A DNA stretch of 64,000 bases from Roseimicrobium sp. ORNL1 (GTDB lineage: Bacteria > Verrucomicrobiota > Verrucomicrobiia > Verrucomicrobiales > Verrucomicrobiaceae), in NCBI RefSeq assembly GCF_011044495.1, contig NZ_CP049143.1, forward strand, positions 7,502,001-7,566,000. Reading direction: 5' to 3'. Shown piece by piece: positions 2,519 to 13,388 of the stretch (positions are counted from its first letter, which is position 1; every line of letters begins with the position of its first letter). Both the position numbers and the translations under genes were made by a program. The notes below the pieces were generated by a model. The model searched no databases and was not told the DNA's origin. It saw only the letters and a program-made list of their open reading frames with translations.

Positions 2519-5137
2519 CTACTTCGCCGGCATCCTCTCGAGCTGGCGCTGCAGGTCCTCGGACTTCTTCTGCAGTTCCTGGAGTTTACTCCACACGTCC
2601 TTCAACTCCTGCGGACCGGCCTGCGCGGCTTCAAGCGCGGTGATGGACTTCTCCGCGGCTTCGCGCACGGGATCCTTGAAGGGCTTGCTCGTGGCGGCCA
2701 ATGGCGCGAGCCAGGCAAGGCCACGCGGATCACGCAGCAGTCCGAGTGACTTCGCCGCCGCTACACGCAAAGATTCACGTGGGTCGTTGAGGTGCTCCGT
2801 GAGGTAGTTCAGCACGGCGGTGCGCTGGGGATTTTTCTCATCGCGCGCCAGGAAACCGAGGGACTCCATGGCAGCAGCGCGATCCCAGGTGCCAAAATCG
2901 AGTGGCGTCTTCTGCAAACGTGCGAGGATGGCCGGCACCGCGCTGGCGTCATCCTGCGCACGGAAGGTGCCGATGGCTGCCATGGCCACCTGATTCCAGT
3001 AGGTCTCGGATTCCAGATGCTTCATCAGTGCCGCGGTGATCGCGGCATCGCCGGGGCGCTGGCTCCAGGTCTTGATGATCTCCGCGAGGATTTCGGGATT
3101 CTTCTCAATCGCGGCCTGCTTCATCAGCGCTTCCCACGCTTCCGGGTGCGGGAATGCAGTGAGAGCCTCCACCACTTCCACACGCACGCGGGCATCTGGC
3201 TGCGCGAGGCTCTTGGCGAGGTACGCACGCGCTTCAGGCGTGTTCATCTTCCTGAGCGCCTTCGCCGCCTCACTGCGTACGCCATGGAAGGCGTCCTTGT
3301 TCAGCACCTCCGCGAGTTGTGCGGCGCTCTCCGCGTTCTTCTTCCCACCGAGGGCCTGCACCGCGAGCATGCGGCCGATGACATCCCCCTGCAGTTGCCG
3401 CTTCAGCATGTCCGGTGGCGGATTGAAGCTCATCTTTGCCAGCACGGTGTAGTCTGGATCCACGCGCACCAGTTCCGGGGCGGAAGGCAGCGGGAAGGAG
3501 AAGCTCTCCTCGGCCTTGCTCACGGTCACGCTGAAGTCGCGCGGCTTGGCCTCACCCTTCACCCAGAAGCGCACCGGCAGATCGAAATGGAAGAGCAGCA
3601 CCTCGGGGGTCACCTTCTGCGTCTGCTTCACATTCAGCTTCGCCTGCTTCGTCCCGGCATCCCATGAATAGTCGACATCCAGATCCGGCACGCCACCGTG
3701 GTAGAGCCACTGGTCGGCGAACTGATCAAAGGACAAGCCGGACACCTCTTCGAGCACATCCATGAGGTCATCCGTGGTCGCCACGGTGCCCCGTTGCTTT
3801 TCCAGGTACCTGCGGATGGCCTTGCGATAGAGATCCGGGCCGAGGCGCGCGCGGATCATATGCAGGATCCACGCACCCTTCGGATACACGCGCTGGTCGA
3901 ACTGCTCCATGGGGTCCTTGTAGTCACGCCACACGGTAGGACGATTGTCCTCCTTCTCCATCACGCGGCGGGCTTCGCGCCAGAGGGAGTAGAGCATGGC
4001 ATCACGGCCTGATTTCGCCTCTTCATAGAGCACGGTGTAATAACTGGCGAAGCCCTCATTCAGCCAGAGGTGCGACCAGTCGCGGCAGGTCACCAGATCG
4101 CCGAACCACTGGTGCGCCGTCTCATGCGCATCCAGCCGGTGCAGGGTATTGAGCTGCTCCGTCTCATCGCGGAAGAGCATATTGGCCGTGTTGAAGGTGC
4201 AGCTCGTGTTCTCCATGCCGCCGGCCACGAAGTCGAGGCAATACACCTGGGCATACTTGTCCCAAGGGAAGGGCACGCCGGTCTCGTCCTGGTAGAACTC
4301 GATGATCTTCTTGGTGTCGCGGAAGGCACCGGCAGCTTGATCCTTCTCCGAGGGCGGCACATAGAGCGTGAGCGGCAGCTCGCCGACCTTGTCTTCGAGC
4401 TTGTGGAAGTAACCCGCGGCGAGTGCCACGAGGTAGTTCACATGCGGCTTGTCCTGCCGCCAGTGCCAGGACTGCAGGCCACCCGCGTCCTTCGTTTGGG
4501 ACACCAGCACGCCATTCGAAATCACACTCATGCCCTCCGGCACGTGGCAGATCACTTCGCTGGTGAAGCGCTCGTTCGGATAATCATAGCAGGGAAACCA
4601 GAAACGGTGCAGCTCGGCCTCGCCCTGGGTCCACACTTGCGTGTCGCCGGGCTTGTAACCCATCTCCGGCGTGCGGAAGTACAGACCGCGCTCCGGCTGC
4701 GCGCGATACGTGATATTCACCGAGGCCTGCACATCCGGCGCAATGGCATCCTTGAAGTGGATGACCAGCTTGTCATCCGTAACCTCGTGACTGGCGAGCG
4801 TCGCGCCCTGCACGGCCACCTTCTCCACGACCAGGCCGACGGCATCCAGCTCCAGCTCCGACAGCGGCTTGGCGATGGGATGGAAAATCAGCGTGGCCGT
4901 GCCGCGCACAGTGCGCTTCGCGAAATCTGGCGTCACGTCGAGCTGGAGATGTTGCACATCCACATGGCGGTCGCGGGCATACTTGCGGCCCGGTTTCTCA
5001 CCTACAGGAGCCGGCAGAAGACGCGTGTGCGCCTGAGTGTGGTCCTGCCCACATCGGCAGATCATCTCCTCCTTTCCCAAGGCGATATGCGACAGAGTGC
5101 AGCACGTCAGGACGGCCAGAGCGAGGAAACGCGACAT
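2519..5137 (-). CDS. M1-family zinc aminopeptidase with C-terminal HEAT repeats
   Basis: 872 aa, with a signal peptide at residues 1-20. The substrate-recognition motif GGMEN is at 306-310. The zinc site HETAH is at 338-342 with the third ligand Glu361 in LNEGFASY, the exact M1 spacing. From about residue 590 the protein consists of repeated helical HEAT/PBS-lyase-like units, and it ends in a short coiled coil. Predicted role: removal of N-terminal residues from peptides outside the cytoplasm. A Cys-rich MICRCG stretch follows the signal peptide. I placed the start at 5137 because the signal peptide follows directly; in-frame upstream codons at 5146 and 5161 (ATG) and 5173 (TTG) lack better ribosome-binding sites. 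Probably the first gene of an operon with creC. Confidence 0.92.
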   Translation of the reverse strand: MSRFLALAVLTCCTLSHIALGKEEMICRCGQDHTQAHTRLLPAPVGEKPGRKYARDRHVDVQHLQLDVTPDFAKRTVRGTATLIFHPIAKPLSELELDAVGLVVEKVAVQGATLASHEVTDDKLVIHFKDAIAPDVQASVNITYRAQPERGLYFRTPEMGYKPGDTQVWTQGEAELHRFWFPCYDYPNERFTSEVICHVPEGMSVISNGVLVSQTKDAGGLQSWHWRQDKPHVNYLVALAAGYFHKLEDKVGELPLTLYVPPSEKDQAAGAFRDTKKIIEFYQDETGVPFPWDKYAQVYCLDFVAGGMENTSCTFNTANMLFRDETEQLNTLHRLDAHETAHQWFGDLVTCRDWSHLWLNEGFASYYTVLYEEAKSGRDAMLYSLWREARRVMEKEDNRPTVWRDYKDPMEQFDQRVYPKGAWILHMIRARLGPDLYRKAIRRYLEKQRGTVATTDDLMDVLEEVSGLSFDQFADQWLYHGGVPDLDVDYSWDAGTKQAKLNVKQTQKVTPEVLLFHFDLPVRFWVKGEAKPRDFSVTVSKAEESFSFPLPSAPELVRVDPDYTVLAKMSFNPPPDMLKRQLQGDVIGRMLAVQALGGKKNAESAAQLAEVLNKDAFHGVRSEAAKALRKMNTPEARAYLAKSLAQPDARVRVEVVEALTAFPHPEAWEALMKQAAIEKNPEILAEIIKTWSQRPGDAAITAALMKHLESETYWNQVAMAAIGTFRAQDDASAVPAILARLQKTPLDFGTWDRAAAMESLGFLARDEKNPQRTAVLNYLTEHLNDPRESLRVAAAKSLGLLRDPRGLAWLAPLAATSKPFKDPVREAAEKSITALEAAQAGPQELKDVWSKLQELQKKSEDLQRQLERMPAK

Positions 5138-5446
5138 GGGCCGCATGCTAGCGGGAGGCATCGACGGGGGCAAGGAACAGTCTGTGGCGCCATGCCAGCT
5201 CCCGGGAAAACCGTGCCGACAGTCATAAGAGGATGAAAAACATCAAATTCCCGACAACGGATCGGCCCGTAAAGATACCAAGATCAGGCTCGTCTCGCCG
5301 GATTCGGGAATGCCAGCCCAGATTGAGATTGCCCAACCGAACGGAAGGACGTCTCATGGTCACTATTCATGCCCGAGCCGGGAAAATCTTGCGTCTTCCT
5401 TGAGCAAGACGACCGTTTTGCGCGTTCTTCTTTCCTCCAAATGCCT
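5138..5446. other. Divergent intergenic region
   Basis: About 300 bp separate the aminopeptidase gene (minus) from the HtrA-like protease gene (plus), so promoters for both directions should lie here. I do not recognise a clear promoter or operator. A weak hairpin (TCTTGC/GCAAGA arms) sits near 5388-5411, in the leader of the protease gene. The plus-strand open frame reaches back to 5369, but that extension has no signal-peptide character. Confidence 0.4.
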
Positions 5447-6985
5447 ATGTCCAAGTCCCTGCTCCTGCCGGCGTTGCTGTTGACGGCGCTCCACCTGCCC
5501 CTGATGGGCGAAGGTACCAAACAAGAACAAGCCCCTCCAGCTGCCACGACCGAAGAGACTCAGGCGGTTGCGAAGAATGCCCCGGCCGGGACCGACCCTT
5601 TCGAGGGCATCGTGCGCATCGAGGCAGAATTCCTGCTCCCTGACTACCGCACGCCCTGGCAGGCCGGCCGCCCCACCAGCGGAAACGGCACAGGCTGGCT
5701 CGTGGGGAAGAACAAGTTCATCACCAACGCCCACGTGGTGAGCAACAGCACCAAGATCTTCATCCGCACCACGGATGACCCGAAACCCTACGAGGCGAAG
5801 ATCGTCCACATCGCCCATGACTGCGACCTGGCCATGCTCGAACCGCTCGATACGAAGCGCTTCGCCGACCTGAAGCCGCTCAAGCTGGATGATGTGCCGA
5901 AACTCGATACCGAGGTCATCGCGGTGGGTTATCCCATCGGAGGCGACCGGGTGAGCGTGACACGCGGTGTGGTCTCCCGCATCGACTTCCAGAGCTACTC
6001 ACACAGCGGCATCGACCAGCATCTGGCCATCCAGGTGGATGCGGCGATCAACCCCGGCAACAGCGGTGGCCCGGTCCTGCAAGGCGGCAAGGTCGTGGGC
6101 GTGGCCTTCCAGGGCTACAGCGGCGCCGTGGCCCAGAATGTGGGCTACATGATCCCTGTGCCGGTCATCAACCGCTTCCTCAAGGACATTGAAGACGGAA
6201 GCTACGACCACTACATGGATCTGGCGATCACGGATTTCCCGATTGAGAACCCTGCCCAAATCAAGGCGCTCGGCCTGGAAGACAACGGCGTGGGCGTGAT
6301 GGTGGCGAATGTCGACAGCGCCAGCTGCGCAGGTGACCTTCTCAAAGTGGGCGATGTGCTCATGGCCATCGACGGCAGCCCCGTTTACAACAACGGCCTC
6401 ATCCGCCTGGACGGCGAGATGGTGGACATGAATGAAGTCGTGGAGCGCAAGTTCGCCGGCGACAAGATCAAGATCGACATCCTCCGTGGAGGCAAGCCCC
6501 AGACGGTGGAGCTGGAACTGAAGCGCTACCTCCCCTACCTCATGCTGGGTGAGCAGTATGTCCAGCGCCCCACCTACGTGCTCTACGCGGGCATGCTCTT
6601 CCAGCCGATGACGCGCAACCTGATGGAAGCGCATAACATCCGTGACCCGCTCGTAAACTACTGGTTCGACAACTACGTGACCAAGGAACTCTTCAAGGAG
6701 CGCCCCGAAGTCGTCGTCCTCACCGCCATCCTGCCCGATGAGGTCAACAGCTACCTGCAAGGGTACCAGCACAGCATCGTGGACGAGATCAACGGCGTGA
6801 AGATCAAGAACCTCAAGGACGTGGCCGAAGCGCTGAAGCACAAGGAAGGCGACGGCAAGTTCGTGGTGGTGAAGCTGCTTGAGAAGAACCGCCCTCTCGT
6901 GCTCCGCCGCGACCTCGCGGACGCTGCCCAGCCGATCATCCTGCAGAAGTACGGCGTGGATAAGGACAGCTACCTCGGGGACTGA
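5447..6985 (+). CDS. HtrA/DegP-like trypsin-fold serine protease with PDZ domain
   Basis: 512 aa with a hydrophobic signal peptide at residues 1-20. The catalytic triad is complete: His96 in TNAHVV, Asp127 in DLAML and Ser206 in GNSGGP, followed by a PDZ domain from about 265 to 370 and a longer C-terminal region that may hold a second degenerate PDZ. Known members degrade or chaperone misfolded proteins in the periplasm. I chose the ATG at 5447; the one at 5441 is equally possible and the upstream extension to 5369 is not signal-like. The next gene, about 85 bp downstream on the same strand, is a paralogue with altered active-site residues, so the two probably act together. Confidence 0.92.
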   Translation: MSKSLLLPALLLTALHLPLMGEGTKQEQAPPAATTEETQAVAKNAPAGTDPFEGIVRIEAEFLLPDYRTPWQAGRPTSGNGTGWLVGKNKFITNAHVVSNSTKIFIRTTDDPKPYEAKIVHIAHDCDLAMLEPLDTKRFADLKPLKLDDVPKLDTEVIAVGYPIGGDRVSVTRGVVSRIDFQSYSHSGIDQHLAIQVDAAINPGNSGGPVLQGGKVVGVAFQGYSGAVAQNVGYMIPVPVINRFLKDIEDGSYDHYMDLAITDFPIENPAQIKALGLEDNGVGVMVANVDSASCAGDLLKVGDVLMAIDGSPVYNNGLIRLDGEMVDMNEVVERKFAGDKIKIDILRGGKPQTVELELKRYLPYLMLGEQYVQRPTYVLYAGMLFQPMTRNLMEAHNIRDPLVNYWFDNYVTKELFKERPEVVVLTAILPDEVNSYLQGYQHSIVDEINGVKIKNLKDVAEALKHKEGDGKFVVVKLLEKNRPLVLRRDLADAAQPIILQKYGVDKDSYLGD

Positions 6986-7070
6986 TCTGTCAGACCCATT
7001 CATCCCAAGCTGCTCCACTCACCGAGTACGAGTTTTTGTTCCCAAGATTTCCCTTTTGCTTCCCATGGTT

Positions 7071-8648
7071 ATGAATCCCTTTCGTGTAACTCTTGCCGCG
7101 CTGCTGGTGCTGGCCGCACCGGTGCTCGCGCAAGCGCAAAGCCGCCCGCAACAACAAGGACAAGGTCGCGGCGGTGAAAAGAGCGCCCTCAGCGAGGAGC
7201 CCGTGGCCGTGGTGGCCATGCCCATCGTCGAAGCGGCGGGCAAGAATACCTCCCTGCTGCGTGTGAACGTGACGTACCAGGCCTGGAACTTCCGGGTGCC
7301 GTGGCAGAAGACCTCCCCCGGCACGCGCCGCGGCCTCGGCGTGCTGATGGAGAAGAATCAGATCCTCGTCACCGCGCAGATCGTGGCGGACGCGACCTAC
7401 ATCGAGCTTGAGCAGGCCGACACCGGCCAGAAGCTCACTGCCAAGGTGAAGGCCGTGGACTACGATGCGAACCTCGCCGTGCTTGAGCCTGCCTCGGATC
7501 CGAAGGAATTCTTCTCGGCCCTCAAACCGCTGGCCATTGAGACCAGCGGTCGCATTGGTGACAAGCTCCAGGTCTGGCAGCTTGGTCGCGTGGGTGACCT
7601 CATCATCACCCCGCTGGAGATCAACAAGGTGCTCACCTCCCGCTACGTGCTCGATACGAGCCATTTCCTCGTGTACGAGACGATCGGCATCATCCGCAGC
7701 GAGTCGAACAGCTTCACCCTTCCGGTCATCAAGAACGGCAAACTCGCCGGCCTGCTGCTGCGCTACAACTCGCGCGACCAGACCGCGACGGTGCTCCCCG
7801 GACCCATCATCGCACACTTCCTGAAGGACATCGCTTCCGGCGATTACAAGGGCTTCCCGAGCCTCGGCGTCGAGTACCAGCAGACGCTGGATGAGCAGTT
7901 CCGCGAATACCTTGGCATGACCAAGGACCAGCAGGGCGTGTACATCGGCGAGGTCGCCAAGGGCGGCAGCGCGGAGAGCCTGGGCATGAAGAAGGGCGAC
8001 ATCCTCATGGAGATGAATGGATACAAGGTCGACGCCCGCGGTGACTACAAGGATCCCGTCTTCGGTCCCGTGAACCTGAGCCATCTCGTGCGTGGCAACA
8101 GCTACGTGGGTGACAAGGTCTCCGTGAAGGTGCTGCGTGATGGCAAGGAACAGACCCTCTCCGGCAAGCTCACCCGCAAGAATCCGAAGGACTATGTGGT
8201 GTGGCCCTACCTCTTCGACCGCGGCGCAAACTTCCTCGTGATGGGCGGCCTTGTGTTCCAGGAACTCTCCATCCCGTACCTCCAATCCTTCGGTGAAAAC
8301 TGGGAAACCAGCGGCCCCCTTCGCCTCGTGCACATCGCGAGCCATGCGGATGAGTATGAGAAGATGGGCAAGAAGAAGATCATCTTCCTCTCCGGCGCCC
8401 TTCCCACCCGCAGCACCCAGGGCTACGGCCGCATCGGTGGCAGCATCGTGAGCAAGGTGAATGGCAAGGAAATCAATGACCTCAGCGATCTCGACAAGGC
8501 CTTCAAGGAGCCGCAGAACCTGCTGCACACCATCGAGCTCGAAGACTTCCCCAAGATCATCTATCTCGACGCCATTGCCGCGGAATCGGACAACCTGAAG
8601 CTCATGGACGTGCCCTACCGTGTGGGGACGCTGAAGCGGATTGAGTAG
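7071..8648 (+). CDS. HtrA-like pseudoprotease with PDZ domain
   Basis: 525 aa with a signal peptide (cleavage near AQAQS, residues 20-24). It aligns along its length with the upstream protease, but the catalytic positions differ: TAQIV has Gln103 where the active enzyme has His, and DANLAVLEP has Asn134 for the catalytic Asp. The Ser loop reads SNSFTLPV instead of GNSGGPV, so the oxyanion glycines are lost. The PDZ domain (about 265-370) and C-terminal region are kept. I infer a non-catalytic adaptor, regulator or substrate-binding partner in the same compartment. ATGs at 7065 and 7071 are both possible. The open frame, length and codon use are intact, so this is not a decaying gene. A strong terminator follows. 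Confidence 0.9.
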   Translation: MNPFRVTLAALLVLAAPVLAQAQSRPQQQGQGRGGEKSALSEEPVAVVAMPIVEAAGKNTSLLRVNVTYQAWNFRVPWQKTSPGTRRGLGVLMEKNQILVTAQIVADATYIELEQADTGQKLTAKVKAVDYDANLAVLEPASDPKEFFSALKPLAIETSGRIGDKLQVWQLGRVGDLIITPLEINKVLTSRYVLDTSHFLVYETIGIIRSESNSFTLPVIKNGKLAGLLLRYNSRDQTATVLPGPIIAHFLKDIASGDYKGFPSLGVEYQQTLDEQFREYLGMTKDQQGVYIGEVAKGGSAESLGMKKGDILMEMNGYKVDARGDYKDPVFGPVNLSHLVRGNSYVGDKVSVKVLRDGKEQTLSGKLTRKNPKDYVVWPYLFDRGANFLVMGGLVFQELSIPYLQSFGENWETSGPLRLVHIASHADEYEKMGKKKIIFLSGALPTRSTQGYGRIGGSIVSKVNGKEINDLSDLDKAFKEPQNLLHTIELEDFPKIIYLDAIAAESDNLKLMDVPYRVGTLKRIE

Positions 8649-8695
8649 TTAGGTTCGATTGCGAACGACACAGACAGATACAGATGCCATTCATG

Positions 8696-8725
8696 AAAAC
8701 GGGAGCAGCGATGCTCCCGTTTTTT
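8696..8725 (+). terminator. Rho-independent terminator after the protease pair
   Basis: A 12-bp stem (AAAACGGGAGCA with TGCTCCCGTTTT) closes a GCGA loop and runs into a T tract. It ends the two-gene protease transcript 48 bp after the second stop codon. Confidence 0.9.
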
Positions 8726-8760
8726 GTTGGGAAATGCCGTCCTTCCGATAACCTAGTCCC

Positions 8761-9279
8761 ATGCCTCGGCCTATTAAGATCGTCCTGCTGATAGCAATTC
8801 TGGTCCTGATATCAGCTGTGGGTTGGTATGTCGTGCCAAGATGGACGCAGCGCGACCCGCTCACGATACGGGTACTGGAGTTCAAGCGGGTCAGCGCAGA
8901 TAGGGTCGCGGTGAAATACGAAGTGGAGAACACATCGCCATATGACGTGCTAGGCATGGTTTTTCTGGAGTTCCACGGTGCCCACCTCGCAGGTCGTTTC
9001 GACGAGCTCAGTTATCTGGTAGAAGACCACTTCTGGGAAGGAAAGGTCCTCCAGCCGGGCTTTCGCAAGACGATTGATACTGAATTCTCCCTGGCTGATT
9101 CTGATGCGAGCAGCCCACAGTACTTTCTATATGCCTGGGATCCCATGCCAGCTCATCTGCTGCGCAAGATGATACCAGCCTATCGGAAGAACATGGACAA
9201 AGGGTCCCTGCGCGTACGGATTGGGTCGGATGGACCATTTGTCCTCACGGACAAGGATGTGTCGCGGGCGCAACCGTGA
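8761..9279 (+). CDS. Membrane-anchored hypothetical protein
   Basis: 172 aa. One N-terminal membrane segment (about residues 5-25, IVLLIAILVLISAVGWYVV) is followed by an exported or cytoplasmic domain of about 140 aa rich in beta-strand-like stretches. I recognise no family. The terminator just upstream suggests its own promoter, and its lower GC and less biased codons than the neighbours hint at a fast-evolving or acquired gene. It ends 31 bp before the convergent sufE gene. Confidence 0.65.
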   Translation: MPRPIKIVLLIAILVLISAVGWYVVPRWTQRDPLTIRVLEFKRVSADRVAVKYEVENTSPYDVLGMVFLEFHGAHLAGRFDELSYLVEDHFWEGKVLQPGFRKTIDTEFSLADSDASSPQYFLYAWDPMPAHLLRKMIPAYRKNMDKGSLRVRIGSDGPFVLTDKDVSRAQP

Positions 9280-11030: not shown

Positions 11031-12107
11031 ATGCCGCGTGTCATTTTCCATGTCGATATGGACGCCTTCTTCGCGTCGATCGAGCAGCGGGATCATCCGG
11101 AGTACCTGGGCAAGCCGGTGATCGTGGGCTCGCCGCCGGATCGACGTGGCGTGGTGTGCGCAGCAAGCTATGAGGCACGCCAGTTCAAGGTGCGCTCCGC
11201 CATGCCTTCGCGGACCGCCGGCCGGCTCTGCCCGCACGGCATCTTCGTACGGCCACGCATGGAGGTTTATCGGGCCGAGTCCCAGGAGATCATGAAAATC
11301 CTCCGCGCGGTGACACCCAAGGTGGAACGCGTCTCCGTGGACGAGGCCTACCTGGAAGTAGCCGAGCTCCCCGAAGGTACAGACACCGACACCGCACTGG
11401 AAGCCGCAGTGCCGGTGGCACGCGAGATCAAGCGCCGCATCCAGGAGGAGCGCCATCTCAGCGCCAGTGTCGGCATCGCCTCGAACAAATTTCTTGCGAA
11501 GCTCGGCAGCGATTTCCAGAAACCAAACGGTCTCACGCTGATCCGGGAGAAGGACAAGGTGGCCTTCCTGCGGCCACTCTCCGTGCGTTCCATCCATGGC
11601 GTAGGCCCCGTCACAGCACAAAGCCTGACGGATCGCGGTCTGCACACCATTGGCGATATCCAGGACACGGAGATGGATCTCTCCCCGATGGTAGGATCAT
11701 GGGCGGAGACCTTGAAACACCGTGCCATGGGCATCGATGATCGCCCCGTGGATCTCAGCGAGGATCGCAAGAGCATCAGCGCAGAGAACACCTTCCTCGA
11801 TGATACGGACGATCGTCCCACCTTGCGTGCTGCACTGAAGGAACTTGCTGCAGACGTGGCTGAGACACTGGAAAAGCACGCGCTCGCCGCACTGACCGTG
11901 CAGGTGAAGGTGCGCTACAGCGACTTCTCCACGCTCACGCGGCAGGTGCGTCTGACCGATCCCATTGCAAATACCGCGGACATCTATCGGCTCGCATGCC
12001 ATCTGCTGGCGCGACATCAGTTGGTGACCAAGCCACTGCGGCTTATCGGCATCGGGGTTTCTACTTTGGTACCACCGATGCGTGAGCAGCTTCTGCTTTC
12101 GATCTGA
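11031..12107 (+). CDS. dinB: DNA polymerase IV (Y-family translesion polymerase)
   Basis: 358 aa. Catalytic acidic residues are visible: Asp9 and Asp11 in HVDMDAFFAS, and Asp104-Glu105 in SVDEAYLEV. Palm, finger and little-finger domains are complete, with the HhH region near 170-200 (SIHGVGPVTAQSL). The last residues EQLLLSI resemble a weak beta-clamp binding peptide. The enzyme copies past damaged bases at low fidelity. I chose the ATG at 11031 because family homology begins there; the frame is open back to 10950, but that stretch contains the SOS box. Expression is likely DNA-damage-inducible. Confidence 0.95.
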   Translation: MPRVIFHVDMDAFFASIEQRDHPEYLGKPVIVGSPPDRRGVVCAASYEARQFKVRSAMPSRTAGRLCPHGIFVRPRMEVYRAESQEIMKILRAVTPKVERVSVDEAYLEVAELPEGTDTDTALEAAVPVAREIKRRIQEERHLSASVGIASNKFLAKLGSDFQKPNGLTLIREKDKVAFLRPLSVRSIHGVGPVTAQSLTDRGLHTIGDIQDTEMDLSPMVGSWAETLKHRAMGIDDRPVDLSEDRKSISAENTFLDDTDDRPTLRAALKELAADVAETLEKHALAALTVQVKVRYSDFSTLTRQVRLTDPIANTADIYRLACHLLARHQLVTKPLRLIGIGVSTLVPPMREQLLLSI

Positions 12108-12189
12108 ACAAATCAGGGCAGTCTGCAAGCACAACCATGGCGGTGTGGGAGCCCGATCCCTTTGGGTTAACCACAAACCCCAAACCACC

Positions 12190-12600
12190 ATGAAAAATCC
12201 ATTCTCCAAACTGAACCGATGGTGCATCGCTGCTGGATTGAGTGCCACCTGTCTCGCAGCGCCGTTTACTGCGTCCGCGGAACCGAACATCGGTGACATT
12301 CTGAAGGAGCAGGCGCGCCGCGAGTTGAACAAGGAGTACGATCGCAAGAATGATCGCGATCGTGATCGTGATTTTGACCGCGATCATTCTCGTGACCGTC
12401 GGAACTCCGATGATCGCTATCGAGATTCCACAGACGCCGCGGTGCAGCGTGCGCTTTCCCGTCGTGGCTACTATGACGGCCCCGCCGATGGCAGCCTGGG
12501 CTCCAGCAGCCGCCGCGCCATCTCACGCTACCAGCGGGACAATGGCCTGCAGGTGACCGGAACGGTGACCCCGGGCCTCCTGCGCGCGCTACGAATCTAG
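12190..12600 (+). CDS. Secreted peptidoglycan-binding domain protein (short paralogue)
   Basis: 136 aa. A signal peptide (about 1-29, ending in ASA) is followed by a highly charged linker of Asp-Arg repeats (about 50-75) and a C-terminal PG_binding_1 domain (about 78-136, with AVQRALSRRGYYDG and the helix RRAISRYQRDNGL). The domain is a three-helix fold that binds peptidoglycan peptides or glycans; no catalytic domain is attached. It is a paralogue of the gene at 12810 and has its own terminator, so the pair look like separate transcripts. Confidence 0.85.
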   Translation: MKNPFSKLNRWCIAAGLSATCLAAPFTASAEPNIGDILKEQARRELNKEYDRKNDRDRDRDFDRDHSRDRRNSDDRYRDSTDAAVQRALSRRGYYDGPADGSLGSSSRRAISRYQRDNGLQVTGTVTPGLLRALRI

Positions 12601-12809: not shown

Positions 12810-13388
12810 ATGAAAATCACCTCATCAAACCTCAGCCGCTTTTTGACTACTGCCACCATGGTAGGCGTCGCCTGCCTGGCACTGCCGGCGACATCGAAGG
12901 CTGACCCGTTCGACTTTCTGAAGAAGAAGCAGAAGAAGATCGAGGATAAGTTCGACCGCGATCGCCACGATCATGATCATGATCACGATGACCACCATCA
13001 TCATGGCGACCGTGATCGGGATGACCGCTACCGTCGCTACACCGCTGCTCCCCGCTCGAGCTTTGTGATCACCTTTGGCAGCGGCTATGCTGGCCAGGGC
13101 TACTACTACGGTCCTGCCAATGCGCCGTACTACTACCAGACTCCCGGTGTCGTGTACTACCGCAGCCGTGAGGCCGTGCCACGCCAGTACTACCCACGTG
13201 ATTGGCAGGTGGACTCCACCGACATGAAGGTGCAGCGCGCCCTGGCCCGCCGTGGTTATTACAATGGCCCCATCGACGGCAGCCTCGGCCCCGGCAGCCG
13301 CAATGCCATCGCGCGCTATCAGCGCGAGCGCGGCCTGCCCGTCACCGGTTCGGTGACTTCCAGCCTGCTGCGTTCGCTGGGCATCTGA
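12810..13388 (+). CDS. Secreted His/Asp-rich peptidoglycan-binding protein
   Basis: 192 aa. A signal peptide (about 1-31) is followed by a Lys-rich helix and a stretch at about 49-76 made almost entirely of His, Asp and Arg. A Tyr/Gly-rich segment (about 85-135) comes next, and the C-terminal PG_binding_1 domain (about 138-192) is closely similar to that of the preceding gene. The HDHDHDHDDHHHH run could bind zinc, copper or nickel. I infer an envelope protein held on peptidoglycan that buffers or senses metal; the metal role is a guess from composition. It is followed by its own terminator. Confidence 0.85.
   Translation: MKITSSNLSRFLTTATMVGVACLALPATSKADPFDFLKKKQKKIEDKFDRDRHDHDHDHDDHHHHGDRDRDDRYRRYTAAPRSSFVITFGSGYAGQGYYYGPANAPYYYQTPGVVYYRSREAVPRQYYPRDWQVDSTDMKVQRALARRGYYNGPIDGSLGPGSRNAIARYQRERGLPVTGSVTSSLLRSLGI

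Follow-up and report, generated by a model that had tools for sequence, protein, structure and literature searches.

In the window analysed here, a stretch of 64,000 nucleotides from Roseimicrobium sp. ORNL1 (contig NZ_CP049143.1, positions 7,502,001 to 7,566,000), two genes of the HtrA/Deg type follow each other on the forward strand. The first one, called A in the following, encodes an active HtrA protease, and the second one, called D, encodes a paralogue which by its sequence is an HtrA pseudoprotease and no protease, and which is considered here as a probable non-catalytic partner of A. Both genes and their relevant elements are listed below with positions in the window.

5447 to 6985, + strand: gene A, active HtrA of 512 amino acids with secretion-signal-like N-terminus, trypsin-like domain, PDZ1 and PDZ_3 (open reading frame, Pfam, model)
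5732 to 5734, + strand: catalytic His96 of A (codon; His present in all 184 scorable A copies)
5825 to 5827, + strand: catalytic Asp127 of A (codon; conserved in A copies)
6062 to 6064, + strand: catalytic Ser206 of A within GNSGG, the oxyanion loop (codon; conserved in A copies)
6434 to 6448, + strand: ExxER motif (E330, E333, R334) in PDZ1 of A, typical of A from D-carrying lineages
6551 to 6967, + strand: PDZ_3 domain of A (PF17815, E = 5e-26, residues 369-507)
7071 to 8648, + strand: gene D, pseudoprotease paralogue of 525 amino acids with secretion-signal-like N-terminus, dead trypsin-like domain, PDZ1 and PDZ_3
7377 to 7379, + strand: CAG, Gln103 of D replacing the catalytic His (aligns with His96 of A)
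7470 to 7472, + strand: AAC, Asn134 of D replacing the catalytic Asp (aligns with Asp127 of A)
7704 to 7724, + strand: SNSFTLP loop of D replacing the GNSGG serine/oxyanion loop (alignment to the region around Ser206 of A)
7911 to 8162, + strand: PDZ1 of D (PF13180, E = 7.5e-11, residues 281-364)
8208 to 8606, + strand: PDZ_3 domain of D (PF17815, E = 3.2e-21, residues 380-512)

Architecture of the two proteins

Protein A displays the features of the HtrA/Deg family, with a trypsin-like fold followed by PDZ domains according to both Pfam (trypsin-like, PDZ_2 and PDZ_3) and an AlphaFold2 model (predicted local distance difference test, pLDDT, of 92.9), as well as the catalytic triad and the GNSGG loop. 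Its closest solved structures are those of plant Deg2/Deg9 (5ilb, 5il9 and 4fln; Z 40.5-41.0, root-mean-square deviation 2.1-2.5 over 448-453 residues). For D, Pfam clearly detects both PDZ-type domains, and the trypsin profile is hardly detectable (Trypsin_2, E = 0.093, below the cut-off), so that the protease part of the HtrA/Deg fold is recognized only through the AlphaFold2 model (pLDDT 94.7) and its matches in the PDB. This model has the Deg2/Deg9 fold, with a query template modelling score of 0.83-0.89 over the best six chains, and the same three entries are its closest solved structures (Z 37.3-39.0, root-mean-square deviation 2.3-2.5, 447-452 residues). The SNSFTLP loop forms the block of lowest confidence (pLDDT 76). 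Lacking the HtrA triad and the GNSGG loop, D so appears from the model to retain the fold without the catalytic chemistry.

Most of this had been anticipated in a preliminary description of the locus, which had assigned a retained protease fold, a His-to-Gln and an Asp-to-Asn change, the loss of the oxyanion glycines and a PDZ domain to the second gene. Both codons prove exact, Gln103 and Asn134 pair with the catalytic His and Asp of A in the alignment of the two proteins, and the glycines are indeed gone. The presence of PDZ in D stands as well, but not as a single domain, as each protein has two of PDZ type (PDZ_2 and PDZ_3).

The C-terminal PDZ_3 domain, found as PF17815 in both proteins, places A and D in the Deg2/Deg9 type. 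Within their own genome (one contig, 7.96 Mb) this profile matches A and D only, and it matches in none of 14 control genomes. Seven other HtrA-like matches of the genome (L241-L247) all retain the GNSGG serine loop, D being the sole loser among the nine. A hydrophobic stretch at the N-terminus of both A and D probably represents a secretion signal, by which both proteins would be exported to the periplasm.

Loss of the triad and ancestry of the pair

Using D as query, a match at 0.001 was obtained in 95 of 96 relatives and a match of 1.1e-43 or better in 94 of them. One relative from the window's family (G058) seemed to carry A only and thus to have lost D, but here the contig ends within D. 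Neither gene was found in G057, a draft genome of the same family (87% complete) and in this respect unique among the 96 relatives, which indicates either a loss of both genes or an assembly gap. Across the phylum, 225 of 387 genomes gave matches, with ordinary HtrA proteases making up many of the weakest hits, and 80 named records with D relatives were retained in a scan, bearing the names Verrucomicrobium, Prosthecobacter and others of the Verrucomicrobiota. In total, 193 loci were fetched, 100 as a selection from the search of the 96 relatives and 93 from the phylum matches down to about 1e-18. With the window added, profiles of A and D at a cut-off of 180 bits identified 185 A and 125 D copies, of which one fragment each was unscorable, leaving 184 A and 124 D copies.

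A complete His-Asp-Ser triad is present in all 184 scorable A copies versus none of the 124 scorable D copies. Orthologues of the second gene with a full triad, named in the preliminary description as the finding that would contradict it, were thus looked for among these copies and not encountered. Conservation of the substitutions across orthologues, also suggested there, holds for the loss of the triad and largely for Asp to Asn (103 of 124 copies), but not for the His position, where Glu (30), Gln (23) and Asp (19) occur among the initial 94 D copies. Likewise, the former catalytic loop varies between lineages, an N-S-[FY]-[TS]-L-P-like version being common in D copies of the window's order. 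One might argue that D remains catalytically active through a rearranged site, considering the serine near the old position in SNSFTLP and the fact that 55 of 94 D copies have Ser in this column of the alignment. With no triad position conserved in D (His in 2, Asp in 6 and Ser in 2 of 124 copies, two of the three in one copy only) and the oxyanion glycines gone, this explanation is very improbable.

In a tree of full-length copies rooted with plant Deg2 as outgroup, the 124 D copies form one clade, whose sister group consists of 128 A copies of D-carrying lineages, and 54 further A copies lie outside. A tree calculated from the PDZ domains only gives the same three groups with support values of 98 for the D clade, 91 for the A clade and 98 for D and A together. 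Long-branch attraction as the origin of the single D clade was therefore dismissed, since the clade persists in the PDZ-only tree, where D is hardly faster than A. Most simply, these phylogenies suggest one duplication and one early inactivation.

Among the 128 sister A copies, D lies on the same locus for 118 and elsewhere in the genome for 4; the other 6 are located at contig ends, accompanied by a cut-off D fragment (L291, L297, L305 and L307) or by D on another contig (L325), or found where the contig stops (L283). Given these contig-end positions, none of the fetched loci demonstrates that D was lost while A remained. Counted by genome, 125 of the 182 genomes with loci contain both genes, 55 contain A only (one being that of L283) and 2 contain D only. 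Here, G445 was counted as A only, its L318 being a contig-end fragment (120 bits for D, 103 bits for A), and for no fewer than four unpaired A copies (L141, L282, L287 and L299) the contig end is so near that a neighbouring D would not show. In the two D-only genomes (G379 and G293), D is found at a contig end, so that they decide nothing. The 125 genomes with both genes span 35 family-level groups of one phylum. Two of the outside A copies (L338 and L339) belong to genomes that also have a pair. One of these genomes, G335 (L117, L337 and L338), carries D and its partner A on separate contigs and the second A in the unpaired outgroup clade. Draft genome G009 contains two complete A-D pairs on different contigs (L066 and L067), the second of which is nearest to the pair of L069 in both A and D. 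This may reflect a transfer or a mixed assembly, the pair travelling together either way.

Constraint, gene order and transcription

Selection was assessed by the ratio of nonsynonymous to synonymous substitution rates (dN/dS), using a Nei-Gojobori script on the conserved parts of 14 locus pairs chosen as close, several of which have dS above 1 and are thus unsure. Across these pairs, dN/dS ranges from 0.045 to 0.190 for D and from 0.017 to 0.199 for A; between the window and its nearest relative, it amounts to 0.079 for D and 0.095 for A. The purifying selection on D that had been deduced from its intact frame is shown by these low ratios, the open frame alone being insufficient.

For a comparison by domain, distances were calculated from 66 representatives out of 118 matched loci, with jackknife standard errors. 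The D/A distance ratio is 2.7 (0.07) for the protease domain, 1.15 (0.03) for PDZ1 and 1.00 (0.04) for PDZ_3. The catalytic domain of D thus appears released from constraint and the PDZ domains hardly so, and it is because of this difference that the function of D probably rests on PDZ binding. Faster protein evolution of the protease domain could also be taken as the mark of a gene in decay which is as yet unbroken. Given the dN/dS values of D, its single clade over 35 pair-carrying family-level groups and the lack of any demonstrable D-only loss among the fetched loci, the probability of such decay is negligible; triad counts, trees and dN/dS together refute it, and they equally rule out a recent duplication and an annotation artefact.

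A PDZ constraint about equal to that of A, combined with a confidently predicted fold, would also suit a homo-oligomeric holdase, and HtrA proteins can act as chaperones. D might thus be an independent, PDZ-bearing periplasmic chaperone or binding scaffold which is merely co-transcribed with A in the same stress response. This is unlikely, though, as D without A occurs among the fetched loci only in the two contig-end cases, both genes are retained where they are unlinked, and PDZ1 of A differs where D is present. The latter difference concerns a helix of PDZ1 which presumably lines the ligand groove, as in HtrA structures. In A copies of the paired clade, E330 is found in 117, E333 in 117 and R334 in 118 of 128 sequences, compared with 1 of 54 each for E330 and E333 in unpaired A copies, which plant Deg2 resembles at this helix. 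In D, the corresponding helix (HLVRG, 8082-8096) carries His in 73 and Arg in 68 of 124 copies (Lys in 10), and the conserved PDZ1 columns D321, Y326 and G332 upstream of it are specific for D. The charged helix face as such (ExxER in A, HxxR in D) is rare or absent in unpaired relatives. A has thus changed as well, most simply after the duplication. A fully reciprocal charge swap between both PDZ1 domains was considered and is borne out in part only, with both D residues present at 49 of 109 loci.

Concerning gene order, the 117 on-locus pairs other than the window all share one orientation, A preceding D on the same strand. The intergenic distance, taken up to the first start codon of D, has a median of 5 bases, does not exceed 100 bases in 114 of the 117 pairs and reaches 367 bases at most, these lengths depending on a mechanical choice of start codons. 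Order was judged by gene ends, by which L118 also counts as A first, though its open frames suggested D first. General conservation of gene order as the cause of this adjacency is not borne out: seven neighbour genes of the window are each found again in 0 to 2 of the 193 loci, and for five of them L059 of the same genus is the sole such locus, with the reservation that the locus flanks extend to about 4 kb or less and the farthest neighbours are partly beyond reach. In four genomes, the pair is split and both genes are retained (G295, G321 and G332, belonging to one genus, and G335), which probably corresponds to two independent splits. Given the matches of D in 94 of 96 relatives and the contrast in triad counts between A and D, the active-dead pair is not a chance observation.

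Two further elements bear on the transcription of the pair.

6986 to 7070, + strand: A-D gap of 85 bases without stable hairpin (fold of 6980-7075, z = -0.28)
8695 to 8725, + strand: intrinsic-terminator-like hairpin with T run directly 3' of D (by eye; fold of 8685-8730, -23.1 kcal/mol, z = -6.1)

Because a strong hairpin follows D and none lies between A and D, both genes are likely to be read from one transcript. A pattern scan for terminators returned 6 sites versus 3.2 expected, the hairpin behind D not being among them, and a promoter scan returned no site.

As for the surroundings, an M1 aminopeptidase with C-terminal HEAT repeats (2519-5173, - strand) is encoded divergently from A and recurs only in L059 among the 193 loci. 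The same distribution applies to a small protein beyond the hairpin (8761-9279, + strand), which shows a weak DUF4307 match below the cut-off. Further downstream, two neighbouring genes (12082-12600 and 12810-13388, + strand) possibly form another tandem pair; their small products both have a peptidoglycan-binding domain at the C-terminus and contain a stretch rich in Asp/Arg or Asp/His.

Role of D and relation to known HtrA systems

With an estimated probability of about 0.68, A and D derive from a single duplication of Deg2/Deg9 type, after which D lost catalysis and was retained as a dedicated non-catalytic partner of A. This proposal draws on the single D clade, the broken catalytic sites, purifying selection, adjacency, retention of both genes in split pairs, PDZ constraint and the changed PDZ1 of A. 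In such a scenario, duplication of a periplasmic HtrA would have yielded both genes, the catalysis of D would have been lost, most simply once and early, and D would have been kept as the partner of A ever since. This role would be exerted through the PDZ domains: D would either capture substrates or C-terminal ligands and pass them on to A, or it would set the activity of A. Going one step further, D would most likely be a subunit of a mixed A/D oligomer in which its inert protease domain would serve as a scaffold. The type of function put forward in the preliminary description, namely capturing substrates or controlling the active protease, remains a hypothesis, favoured by the persistent pairing and by PDZ domains that are still constrained while the protease domain is not.

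The arrangement of an inactive HtrA next to an active one is of a known kind. According to PMC4794232, pseudoproteases evolved independently in three taxa, and MamO of magnetotactic bacteria, without its triad, is required for MamE-dependent proteolysis. Like A and D, MamE and MamO are an active HtrA and a relative whose triad is degenerate and whose oxyanion position is not a glycine, as is also the case in D. In contrast to D, MamO is described as magnetosome-specific, metal-binding and dependent on a TauE-like transporter domain for activation (PMC4794232), whereas D is of Deg2/Deg9 type, forms one clade over 35 family-level groups of one phylum and has no TauE-like transporter domain among its Pfam matches. 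MamO also provides the precedent for another explanation, namely that the dead catalytic domain of D was repurposed for unrelated binding, as that of MamO for metal (PMC4794232). The recurrent N-S-[FY]-[TS]-L-P-like loop in D copies of the window's order would fit, but the protease domain is the very part of D with lost constraint and its former catalytic loop is lineage-variable, which makes such repurposing improbable.

In plant Deg7, an inactive domain is reported to be involved in trimerization (PMC3473262); there, the active and the inactive domain belong to a single polypeptide of about 1,000 residues, whereas A and D are encoded by two separate frames. By analogy, MamO and the inactive Deg7 domain show that both an activator mode and a trimerization mode are feasible. 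Other inactive Degs of plants and cyanobacteria, i.e., HtrA relatives with mutated active-site residues, are thought to have other roles, and an HhoB/HtrA heteromer has been suggested as a possibility (PMC3473262 and PMC4877387). Unlike A and D, these are scattered cases, and a conserved operon with an active partner is not described for them in the excerpted parts of both sources. Plant Deg2/Deg9 (4fln, 5il9 and 5ilb) share the protease-PDZ-PDZ_3 layout with A and D, but are catalytically complete, and the solved entries contain one chain type. DegP, DegQ and DegS represent the HtrA fold as PDZ-controlled periplasmic proteases; they match D structurally less well than Deg2/Deg9, and they are not known to have a dead partner. 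In the open-licence literature on HtrA/Deg pseudoproteases and Verrucomicrobiota HtrA, no description of the A-D pair was found. As far as these literature searches show, the separate-gene Deg2/Deg9-type form, the single clade, the spread over many families and the domain-wise shift in constraint are new.

Several points weigh against a dedicated partnership. Contact between A and D is putative, and genes in tight operons may also encode proteins that do not come into contact with each other. A physical interaction of MamE with MamO was not detected, and the activation by MamO needs a transporter domain which D does not have (PMC4794232 for MamE and MamO). G057 is without both genes, dN/dS of D exceeds that of A in 11 of the 14 locus pairs, and the support for the D clade in the full-length tree is 79, with weak deeper branches (41 and 86). 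At the 109 matched loci with ExxE/D in A, D has both His and Arg/Lys at 49, one of them at 44 and neither at 16. The A motif is missing at 9 further loci, where D has neither residue; they form one clade, the deepest paired one, and are thus non-independent. Finally, ExxER might reflect a new ligand bound by A.

A more far-reaching and more tentative version of the partnership, less probable than the partnership itself, holds that an obligate mixed A/D oligomer might be the default HtrA form in many families of one bacterial phylum, in which D would supply substrate- or signal-binding PDZ grooves and the reciprocal PDZ1 charges (ExxER in A, HxxR in D) would hold or switch the complex.

The usual description of HtrA proteases is that of homo-oligomers with a homotrimer as the basic unit (PMC4877387). 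The A-D pair suggests that hetero-HtrA may be an old and stable design and no mere magnetosome curiosity, and the long retention of D under strong selection points to a long-lived auxiliary function of a catalytically dead protein. With well over a hundred natural pairs at hand, the service of a pseudoprotease to its partner may be mapped, for which the PDZ1 helix offers candidate residues.

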